This document shows positions 24,981-39,900 of a stretch of 64,000 nt of DNA, piece after piece. The translations under genes and the position numbers were made by a program. The notes beneath the pieces are model-generated. The model did no database searches and had not been told where the DNA came from. It was given only the letters and a program-made list of their open reading frames with translations. The stretch covers positions 253,001 to 317,000 of the forward strand of contig JAIGNY010003234.1 of NCBI GenBank assembly GCA_020152595.1, read 5' to 3'. The stretch comes from Chiridota heheva (taxonomy: Eukaryota > Echinodermata > Holothuroidea > Apodida > Chiridotidae). Within the stretch, counting starts at the first letter, position 1, and each line of letters opens with the position of its first letter.

Positions 24981-27900
24981 CTGCAAAGAGAACCAGAAAA
25001 TCTATGGTTCGGAGGTTCCGAGGCTCAATATGGATTTTAAAGTTGAATTATTGTATTATAAATGTTATTGCACAATGGGCTCAAAATGACAATCAAGTAA
25101 CGCACAAGAATGGAATTTCACAATTAATTAGATTCAACCATTTTGATCCCATTAACATGTATTCACTTGCTAAAAGCATAATAAATAGAAACAAAACAAA
25201 CATGCGGTTAACAAAATATGAGCATTTTAAAGGAATATTCCCATGTATTTTTCGTAACCTTTCATAAGAAAGAAAGTTTTCAGAAACAATTTAGTACAAA
25301 AAAATGTTGATATTATTCCTACCAGGAGATATTCAAATTTCAAGGTTCCAAAAAATGCCAATAAACGAATAGGAAAAGGCTCAGAATGACATCACAGCAA
25401 CACATTCTCACACATTGTTTATGTATTTCATTCAAATCTATCATCCTTTTTACTAGTAAAACTTGCTAGAAAAATAGATTGATGACAGGTATTTATATAC
25501 ATTGCCAAATATACCCTACTTCAATTACTTTTTAAAAATTGTCTCTAATCATGCAGAAACAACCAATCAACGTTCAATAAAAATACCTAAACATTTGCAA
25601 TGAAATTGCCTCTACAACATCATCAAACACGAATTCATCATACTATACACAAACTTTAAAGTGCGATTGGGAAATATTTAAAAATCCCTATCTCCATAAT
25701 TGAATATGATATTAACCTGATTTTTTTTACCAAATTGTCTCTTAAAGTATGCTCTTTTAAATAAAATTTTACAAAAAAGCATGGGAATATTCCTTTAAGA
25801 ATATAACTTTATGCCTTCTCTACTCTTTAATATTGCATGCATTGCCGGCAAAAATAATAGGGCACATCTGCAGACCATGGGCAATCTGTGTACAACACAT
25901 GACCTGAATCCCACATATCGTTCTTGAGATACTGTTTACAAGCTCTCTTCAACAAAATCATGTGAAGCCCCACCCGCTATGAAATATGCATATTAATGAA
26001 ATGCAACATTTTTGTACCATGAACATATACACAATAGCTAACAACTTAATTATACCAAATTTGAAACAAATCAGTCATGCGGTTGATAAAATATGAGCAT
26101 TTCCAGATTTTATCATTAAGCCCTGCCTACTCATTAATATGCATGACATTGCAACCAAAAACAATAGGGCACATCAGCAGACCATGAGCTATCTGTGTAC
26201 CACATTTGGCCTGAATCCAATGTATCATTCTTGAGATACTGTGTTTACAAGTGCTTTTCAAAAAAATCATGTTAAGCCCTGCCCACTATGCATATTAATT
26301 AATTCAACATTTTGGTGTCATGAACATGTACACACTAGCTAACATAATTACACCAAATATGAAACAAAGCAAGACATGTGGTTGTTAAAATATGAGTTTC
26401 TTATGATAATGATATGCATTGGAACCAACTTAAAATTATGATATTTCAAATGCTTTGATATGGCAAACTAAATCTCTAGTTATTTTAGGATAGGCATGTA
26501 GAATAAATCATTACCCTTGATTTCGAAATTAATTGTAAAATAAGCATTGTATGAAGATGATTAATATTGAAATTATTGTCGCCGGTGGTGTCAGGTTTAC
26601 ACAAATTGTCACCACCATGGAGATAAACTGGAATTACATGTACCATTGTCTTCACTGTCATATATCACAATTTTTACATTTATGAAACAAATGTCAAACT
26701 TGTATCAGATAACTCAAAACCAAAGTATGCTACTATTAATAAAAGTCAAAAGAAATTTATACTGAACTTACCAGCAGTTCAAGTACCAAAAGGTCACTTA
26801 ACCTCTTGACCTCCTTGGGTTGAGACATGAGGGCATTCTCTCTCCTGCAGAAAATGATACGAGGAGAAGTTTTAAAATGGTTATTTTTCTCCTGTGGACG
26901 TCATACAGTAACTTTTGTTTTTGGGGTGTGGGAAAGGAAGGGGAGTTAAATTTTCTGAATCATTTTTTTTGCAGCACACGAAGCTCTTTCACAACAATCT
27001 GCACTTAGAGGGCAGAATTCTAGAATGACCTTGATTTACTTTGTACATAATATAGCTTTGTTCTGAATACTTAGGGGAGAGGGAATGTGCCCCCTCACCA
27101 TAGGGAGACTTCATGAAAGCAATTGATGCTAATACCTCATGTGAAGCTTCAGTTGTTGCCGCTGCCTCTTAATGAAGTGACTGTGCTCTTGTATGCCCAT
27201 CTCAAACATCTCCTGGAACTGATCATCAAGAAGACGGATGGACTGTAAAGCTTCATGGATGATGTCATGGTAGGTCAAAGCATCCGATGTGTAATGTATT
27301 AAGGAACAACAGTAAAGATAATAATAGTATGGACACCTTGTTTCAAATTAAATGTTTTGAAAACTATTGACATCAAGCCACTGGTCATTCTGATGTCTGT
27401 GAATGGCTCTGGTTTTCACTCCAAACATTTTCTGTTGACTGATCAAAACGAGTGCAGTAATAATTATTTTATGAAATATTCGTTTTGGCCAGTCCTTCTC
27501 TGTGAAAGGTGTATGGACAGCTGCATTTACAATCACCTATTCTTCTAACAGTAAATGTTTGTCTTGGATGTGTAGAGGCACCAGCAGCTACAGTAATTTG
27601 CTATTCTCCTAACAGAGTAAATGTGTCTTGGATGTATAGAGGCAACAGCAGCAGCTACAGCAATTTGCTATAAAAGCTTTAAAAACCATCAGAGTAACAA
27701 CAGCGGTTATCATACCTGTCTACAGACCACGAGGCCCTGGGTTCAAGCCTGGGTTGGGTAGACACTCCAGTGTACCACAACTGGTTATCAAAGGCCGTGG
27801 ACATTGACTTGGTTGTCGATGTTATGTCTGTCCGTACGTCGTACCTGTGTTCTCGTCCGGGTCGTATTAAGCATTTCGTGATAGCATTGTTACTATCATA

Positions 27901-36900: not shown

Positions 36901-39900
36901 TTCAGGAATAAGTCTAGTGGCTCTTTGCTGAACCTGCCCTAAAATGAACTTATCCTTCTCATAAAAGGGACTCCAAGCCCGAATAGCATACTCAAGGTGA
37001 GGCCTGAATAACTGCTTATACAAATTAAGAACAACCTCTCTACCAAGAAAACAAAAAAAAATTATAATCAAACCAAGCATCCTATTTGCCCTTGCAGCTG
37101 CTAAAGCACACTGTTTAGAAGGCTTCAGATTGCTAGTAATGACAACACCTAGATCTCTTTCTTGATCAACACAACCAAGATTTAAACCATTCATACAGTA
37201 ATCAAAAGCCAAATTGCTCCAACCAAAATAAATAACTTTGCATTTATCAACATTGAATGACATCTGCCACAATTGGGACCAAAAAACTAACCTATCCAGA
37301 GCAGTCTGCAACAGTGAAGAATCCCTAGCATCATCAACAATCCTGTACAGCTTGGTGTCATCAGCAAATTTACAAATCCTGGAGCCAAGGGAAACATCAA
37401 TATCATTAATAAAGATTAAGAAAAGAAGCGGACCCAATACAGAACCCCGAGGAACACCATTTGTAACGTTCTTCCATAGAGATACTTAACCATTAACAAC
37501 AACTCTTTGTGACTTGTCAATTAACTAAGAATTTATCCAACTGGCACACTTTCCCTCCATACCAAGTGCTCTTGTTTTCAACATGAGCCTGCCTAATGGA
37601 ACCTTATCAAATGCTTTTTGGAAATTTAAATAGGTAGCCTCCACATTATGACCAGAATCAACTAGTTTAGTAACATCATCAAGAAACTCCTATAAATTAG
37701 AAACACAAGACCTCTTAGGTAAGAATCCATGCTGGTACAAATTCAACAAACCATTGACCAGTAAATGATCTAGTACAACATCCTTAACAATGGACTCCTT
37801 GACCTTGCACACAACACTAGTAAGACTCACTGGCCTATAATTACAGGACAAACTGTGGTCACCCCTTTTTTTTTTTCTTTTTTTAGTTTGACTCACCTTT
37901 CTTTGGGATACATCACTATAGTCAAGTATCTTAAGCTGCAAAGGTCTATGGACTGGTGGTGATTTCACCAGGTAAAGTCTAAACAGATTAGCCTTAAATT
38001 ATGTCAAAAGGACCCGTAGTTTACAAGTTACAGCCAATCAAAGTTTGACCAATTCTAATGCATGTAAAAGCTGTGGTGTATGGAAAAGAAGACAGCTGAA
38101 AATTTTTCATGTATTCTTTAAATTTCTGTCCTAAATTTCAGTTAATGAAATTTGCACTGCTTTCTCCTGTTAAATTTCAATAGTCTTTAAAATAGCATAC
38201 TTGGCCACTAAACTAATCTTTTAGACAATTCAATAATTAAAAATCTTGTTTGTCCAAGAAAAATGTCTCTCAACCAAACAAAATATATCAACAAAAATAT
38301 TAACCCCCCACCCCAGTCCTTTCCAACCATGAGAAAAAATAAAAGTATTTTCAACAAGAGCAAAGGATATGGTGGAAGTGTTTCAATCTCCGTTCTTTGC
38401 AGATAGACATCGATTCCTGCCTTTTTGTTGAGACCTTTCTGGTTCAGAAAATGACTGACCAATGGGCTTTGACCGCCAGTGTTGAAGACCACTTTATTGA
38501 ATGATGGACCCTTAGTAGCTGGATGAGACTAAAGTAGAAAAGAGAATGGATCTAAATTATTCATTTTTATTGTTTAATTGAAAAGAAAATCTTCATTCTT
38601 TACACTTTATAACATCTTACTATGTATGTTTGTCTGTTTGTTTGATGAGGGAATAGCGGCACCACAATAACGAGGGTCAAATTGAACCTAAGAGGTCAGA
38701 TCATTCTAGAGGTAGGAAGGAAAGGAAACAGAGAGAGAATGAGAGAAATACAAGAACAAAGTCAGAAAGCTGAAATCGAGAGAGGAGCTGCATGGGTGAG
38801 AAAAAAAACACAGTAGAGAGAGGGGGTGGAAGAGGAGAACTAAATATGGTTGTGGTGGGAAGCATGATGAAGGAAGGATATAATTTTATCTGGAGGGTTT
38901 TTCTGGAAGAACTCAGCAATTGAGTTGTGGGGAGTGAGGGAAGTTCTGAGAAGGTTGTACAGGGGGCAAGCAAGGAGAACGTGATGGACTGTGAGGGTGC
39001 AATGGCAATTGTTGCAGAGGGGTTGGGGGAGCCAATAAGGAGGTGGGGGTGAGTGAGGTGGGTGTGACCAATTCTAAGACGGGTAATATGAACGTTGTTG
39101 ACACGAGAGAGGTTGTTGATGGTGGGTTTGATCAAAATAATGGGCTGGATGACGTAGAGTTTGTAATCAATTTAGGAGTTCCATGAGGTTTGTCAGCGGT
39201 CACGAACAAGGGAAGCGATAAGCGGTTTGATGTCAGAAAGGGTTTTAAGAAAAGGGGTAGGGGGAGGCTGAGGGCAAGCTTAGTGGCTGCATCAGCCCTG
39301 TCATTGCCAGGAATGCCAACATGGCTGGGTATCCAGAAGAAAAGAATGCTTTTCCTGCAGAGGGTGGGCAAAAGGAGTTTCTAGAGGATGAGGTGGGATG
39401 TAAAGTTATCCCATTTAAGATTGAGTAAAGAAGAAGAACCTTGGAGTCGGAGAAAATGGCAAAGTGGCTGAGCGGAGAGTACTCAATAAAGTTAAGGCGA
39501 GGAGGATGGCCTTTGTCTCAGCTAAAAACATGGGCGAGTAGTCGGGAAGTCTGCTACTGAGGGTGATGTCTTGGATCACCGCAGCAGCAGCTGTCCTGTT
39601 GCCTTCCTTGGAGCCATCAGTATAGATGAAGGTGTAATTTGAGAGTTGGTCTTTGATTTGGTTGTGGAGGTTGATGAAGAGGTTAGGGTTGGTTTGGGTT
39701 TTGTGATGAGTGGAGAGGCCCAGGTGGATAAAAGGGCCAAGAAGGAAAAGTGAGCCAGGAGAAGGTGCCGAGAGTGGCAGGGTTGATGCCGAGATGGAGG
39801 AGGTCTGATTTAATGCGTAAGCTAAAGGGAGGGGATAGGGTTTTAGTACTATTAAAGAGGGTGGAGAAATTGGGTACCTAATGAGGTTGTAAACAGGGTA

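Follow-up and report, generated by a model that had tools for sequence, protein, structure and literature searches.

Sequence evidence for a probable U12-type AT-AC intron, conserved between paralogues, in a FAM227-family gene of Chiridota heheva

The window analyzed here is a 64-kb stretch of DNA, positions 253001-317000 of contig C3104, from the 1.1-Gb genome of the holothuroid Chiridota heheva. Its minus strand carries a gene of the FAM227 family. The interval 38370-27289 between two coding exons of this gene very probably represents a conserved U12-type (minor-spliceosome) AT-AC intron that is older than the split between the window gene and a paralogue on contig C686, a reading that draws on splice signals and the reading frame. 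The flanking exons are called exon 10 and exon 11, labels that come from an earlier annotation of the same DNA (the original prediction) and not from a complete gene model.

Exon 10 (38371-38528, minus strand, 158 nt) is preceded by the acceptor CTACTTTAG, ends with CTTCCACC and leaves phase 2 at its 3' end. The boundary reads CC/ATATCCTTT, i.e., AAACACTTCCACC/ATATCCTTTGCTC (slash, exon border), with 38370 as the first intron base. The predicted U12-type 5' splice site ATATCCTTT (38362-38370) matches the published AT-AC donor ATATCCTT at 8/8 positions and has a T at the ninth (PMC2831892). At the other end of the interval, the putative branch site TTCCTTAAT (27298-27306) is followed by ACATTACAC up to the last intron base, 27289, and the branch adenosine lies 10 nt before that base, as counted by eye. 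The longer consensus forms of these signals are ATATCCTTT for the donor and TTCCTTAAC for the branch site. Compared with the published branch site TCCTTAAC (PMC2831892), the window sequence TCCTTAAT agrees at 7/8 positions. The intron ends with TTCCTTAATACATTACAC, the position of its AC 3' splice site (27289-27290) following from the reading frame as well as from the start of the paralogue exon, and exon 11 (27136-27288, 153 nt, with a 3' end presumably at GAG/GTATTA) starts directly thereafter at 27288 with ATCGGATGC. The resulting intron of 11,082 bp is in phase 2 on both sides, and the joined exons are read without a stop; using the AC two bases earlier (ATTAC/AC) would shift the frame into TGA, as read by eye. 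The other inspected borders of the gene, likewise judged by eye, are GT or AG. The original prediction had named 38370 and 27289 as the outermost intron bases, a minor-spliceosome donor, a branch site, an end in CAC, and phase 2 on either side; each of these positions and letters was recovered here.

The paralogue on C686 contains an exon (1644863-1644709) identical to window exon 10 at 22/51 residues. It ends AGGTCTCAAGACTCCA/ATATCCTTTTTTATC, so that the boundary is CA/ATATCCTTT, and the donor 9-mer at 1644708 is identical to that of the window gene. The paralogue intron ends ATCCTTAACATGTGAGCCAAC; GATCCTTAACATGTGAGCCAAC precedes the next exon, whose first base is 1643964 and whose peptide includes SPAPTYKDIIK. 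Its branch site, ATCCTTAAC, agrees with the published TCCTTAAC at 8/8 positions, with a branch adenosine distance of 13 nt (by eye). Common to both genes are the donor 9-mer, the branch-site core CCTTAA, the AC end and phase 2. The local similarity score of the two exon 11 sequences, over the first 28 residues of the window exon, was reached by 0/2000 shuffles, and the joined exon 10/11 peptides align at the junction with a one-codon gap. These signals occupy corresponding positions in the two genes. The most economical interpretation is that the AT-AC intron is very likely older than the divergence of the window gene and its paralogue, and that class, subtype and phase were kept. Length was not: the paralogue intron measures 744 bp vs 11,082 bp in the window gene, a 15-fold difference. 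The U12-type AT-AC class proposed by the original prediction is thereby upheld by donor, near-exact branch site, AC end, phase and the same signals in the paralogue. A second exact ATATCCTTT, perhaps a chance occurrence, is present on the minus strand of the C686 locus at 1645360, upstream of paralogue exon 10.

Membership of the gene in the FAM227 family, also claimed by the original prediction, is supported by matches to the FWWh domain (PF14922) in two single exons of the minus strand, 43830-44006 (contig 296830-297006; E 6.6e-18) and 45251-45406 (contig 298251-298406; E 3.2e-14). The two scores are 74.3 and 62.3 bits (cut-off 25), and a hand-made join of both exons, which includes 12 residues from outside the exon, reached 131.4 bits. 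Across the genome, with 16/16 candidates scored, PF14922 gave four matches in total: the two window exons and a further pair on C686, which scored 44.2 and 31.8 bits. The FWWh exons lie upstream of the exon 10/11 pair, and their order and strand are the same in the window gene and the paralogue; judged by this common arrangement, the exon 10/11 pair is part of the same predicted gene. A Pfam search over the exon 10/11 stretch itself returned no convincing model, DUF4715 scoring 13.3 bits (E 0.087) where 27 is the cut-off, and a search of solved structures returned no FAM227 relative for either of two queries, each having a single match (E 0.28 and 0.73).

On its minus strand the window holds a single exact copy of the 9-mer ATATCCTTT (38370) and a single TTCCTTAA[CT] (27306), each where the protein requires it. 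Branch-site pairs, defined as a branch site with at most one mismatch and an AC at 9-14 nt, number four on this strand: the tested site, 38127 and 35628 inside the intron, and 63908 outside. Over 168 kb of strand there were five exact donors and eight such pairs, tested sites included. In 100 composition shuffles of the window minus strand, the means were 0.95 exact donors and 0.57 close branch-site pairs; the mere presence of these signals in the window is therefore not unusual, and it is their position that is. The rates over 168 kb are 3.0e-5 (donor) and 4.8e-5 (branch site with AC) per base, giving ~1.4e-9 for both at two given places, a rough figure in that the rates include the tested sites, the positions are taken as independent, and several permitted AC places would raise it several-fold.

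Several observations weigh against a conserved AT-AC intron, beginning with the window branch site, which ends in T and not C. Paralogue exon 10 is one codon shorter than window exon 10, and the first C686 FWWh match (44.2 bits) contains one TAA within the matched stretch. Further points of this kind belong to an ordinary GT-AG intron, in which exon 10 would end later or earlier at a GT and exon 11 would start at an AG ahead of the proposed border or within the exon. The exon 10 frame is open for 106 amino acids, that of exon 11 is open back to 27347, and GTs in the open frame of exon 10 number 17 in the window gene and 8 in the paralogue; at four offsets inside exon 10 (19, 36, 55 and 69 nt) both genes have a GT. 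Scored with a donor matrix, the frame-keeping GT-AG pairs that exist on paper in the window join 38305 (-2.3 bits) to 27336, 38312 (1.2 bits) to 27250, and 38460 (0.9 bits) to 27242, and the paralogue permits an in-frame GAG/GTCTCA (-5.0 bits) to GTGAG/CCA.

However, the donors of the window pairs all score 1.2 bits or less, phase-2 donors past the boundary score -2.3 bits or lower, and the best GT past the boundary, 38312, fits the phase only with the AG inside exon 11 at 27250. Joining 38305 to 27336 would add YPLLLL...YYYYLYCC, a stretch without paralogue counterpart, and the two other joins would remove TYHDII, whereas the paralogue keeps TYKDII. The four common GTs (window and paralogue scores of -4.5 and -5.3, -3.3 and -7.7, -3.7 and -3.7, and 0.9 and -5.3 bits, respectively) all lie upstream of the midpoint of exon 10, and splicing at any of them would remove the conserved second half of the exon. 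In the paralogue the frame closes 22 nt past the donor with no GT in between, and where the paralogue has GAG/GTCTCA the window gene has GAG/ATTGAA. We consider a GT-AG intron very improbable. The original prediction saw no usable GT or AG at the boundaries required by the protein; the GT-AG alternatives score poorly or would drop conserved residues.

One or more further exons might also lie between exons 10 and 11, making the joined AT-AC reading incomplete or a chance match. The 11 kb give room for this and contain many open frames, and an exon started at 35628, where another branch site with AC appears to stand, would stay open for 26 codons and offer two GTs ahead of the stop. Against this, an exon begun in phase 2 at the look-alike 38127 meets a stop after three codons, and the same 9-mer stands at the same place in the paralogue with only 744 bp between exons, the joined peptides aligning there; an additional exon is slightly less probable still than a GT-AG intron. 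Least credible is a U2-dependent AT-AC intron: such introns exist, e.g., in sodium-channel genes, but carry G at +5 (PMC2831892), and the C found at +5 of the window donor, within a full U12 donor and together with a near-exact U12 branch site, argues against this type.

A conserved U12-type AT-AC intron would be removed as follows. U11 small nuclear RNA (snRNA), by its 5' end AAAAAGGGC, would pair with the donor ATATCCTTT, and U12 would pair with the branch site TTCCTTAAT, with U12, U4atac and U6atac presumably in use. The minor spliceosome would then join CC/A in phase 2, using the AC located 10 nt beyond the branch adenosine. An intron of the same class, subtype and phase would already have been present in the common ancestor of both FAM227 genes. 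Candidate components of this machinery were found in the genome. With 40 of 120,335 candidates scored, the full Rfam model for U11 is matched by at least two loci, at 91.4 and 71.3 bits against a gathering score of 39, and both start with AAAAAGGGC, in which AAAGG can pair with the donor CCTTT. The 5' end of the weaker locus (C2088:608076-608208) is very similar to that of the stronger one, and in the alignment many pairs of its 3' hairpin are disrupted; this second locus may be a pseudogene. Two exons match the family of PDCD7, a U11/U12 protein, scoring 40.8 and 28 bits with a cut-off of 27. Rfam gave no match at gathering scores over the 64-kb window.

The length of the window intron appears to be linked to long interspersed nuclear elements (LINEs). 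LINE reverse-transcriptase fragments occupy 36670-37998 (minus strand), where open reading frame (ORF) 36670-37485 matches RVT_1 at 35.8 bits (cut-off 29.6) and ORF 37693-37998 at 20.5 bits, below it. A second LINE region with endonuclease and reverse-transcriptase remains, 30638-35264 (minus strand), matches Exo_endo_phos_2 (33.3 bits, cut-off 27.4) and, below the cut-off of 29.6, RVT_1 (28.1 bits), and shares 83-86% identity with a copy right of exon 10. Among nine intron ORFs searched against Pfam, reverse transcriptase was over cut-off in one and below it in two, endonuclease was over cut-off in one, and five had no match; a tenth ORF included in that search is outside the intron. A blastn comparison with both window flanks and 11 of 21 loci found relatives elsewhere for 4,559 of the 11,082 intron bases. 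This number sets a minimum for the repeat content, and 497 of the bases have their only match in the C1319 duplicate described below. LINE-related copies were found just to the right of exon 10, around 46.6-47.0 and 53.5-54.2 kb, near 24 kb to the left of the intron, and at the paralogue locus. We infer that later LINE insertions helped to extend the window intron to 11 kb.

On contig C1319, positions 1097098-1098109 are a genomic duplicate that takes in exon 10, the preceding LINE tail and the initial ~500 bp of the intron; identity is 91% over ~1.0 kb. The duplicate exon differs at 6/158 bases, and its donor lacks the AT (ATATCCTTT to ATCCTTT). The match at C1319:1097445-1097630, obtained with the joined peptide as query and covering residues 1-62, had been a candidate for an intronless retrocopy, and as such for direct proof of splicing; it was rejected because everything beyond the junction is translated intron sequence. 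Genome searches placed no exon 11 or FWWh match at this duplicate. A LINE-related stretch (88%) is located just upstream, at C1319 1095336-1096681.

Elsewhere in the window, a 34-bp unit repeated in tandem ~19 times at 51483-52119 contains TTTCTTTCTTTGCAG, which resembles a 3' splice site on the plus strand. Two minisatellites were observed, at 2507-3395 (23-bp unit, 39 copies, 93% matches) and 3738-4310 (26-bp unit, 22 copies, 96% matches), along with a (TA)n microsatellite of ~229 units at 60327-60786.

The window intron very probably adds a new case to the known U12-type AT-AC class. Minor introns are a rare kind, and the original prediction stressed the rarity of AT-AC introns in animals and the 11-kb length with many transposons; the surprise was overstated, as the AT-AC subtype makes up ~22% (PMC6717393) to ~26% (PMC7367187) of human minor introns, the lengths of both intron classes are correlated across species (PMC10639083), and relatives of the LINEs occur elsewhere in the window. 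Phase 0 is under-represented in minor introns (PMC7367187), AT-AC introns are under-represented among minor introns converted to U2-type (PMC2831892), and minor introns are comparatively abundant in molluscs, arachnids, Lingula and Limulus (PMC10639083). Gene finders restricted to GT-AG would miss the border described here, breaking the FAM227 protein at a conserved stretch. The two diverged paralogues, with introns 15-fold apart, would provide a clean small case in which class, subtype and phase are kept and length is not.

We presume that the FAM227 family is linked to cilia or sperm. Minor splicing has been linked to testis-enriched and ciliary genes (PMC6717393, PMC13216214), and FAM227 is not named in the main text of PMC13216214. 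Among the papers searched, none joined FAM227B with U12-type or FAM227 with the minor spliceosome. We tentatively raise the possibility, which we regard as doubtful at present, that FAM227 is an unlisted minor-intron gene family whose AT-AC intron predates the paralogue split (perhaps FAM227A/FAM227B) and was kept in both genes. If true, this would tie FAM227 to minor splicing and could help to time the duplication.

FAM227A and FAM227B are genes with the FWWh domain (PF14922); the Chiridota heheva genes resemble them in this domain, and two such genes are present in the genome. Relative to U12-type AT-AC introns, the window intron is alike in its donor ATATCCTTT, a branch site near TTCCTTAAC, the AC end and a phase other than 0, and differs in a branch site ending in T and in a length of 11 kb, reached partly via LINE fragments. 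Minor introns that members of a gene family share are known (PMC6865273), and families from a duplicated ancestor with a minor intron include E2F, MAPK and the voltage-gated Na/Ca channels (PMC6865273, PMC6717393). FAM227 is not named among these families in the available parts of those papers, but like them its paralogues appear to keep a minor-type intron at one position.

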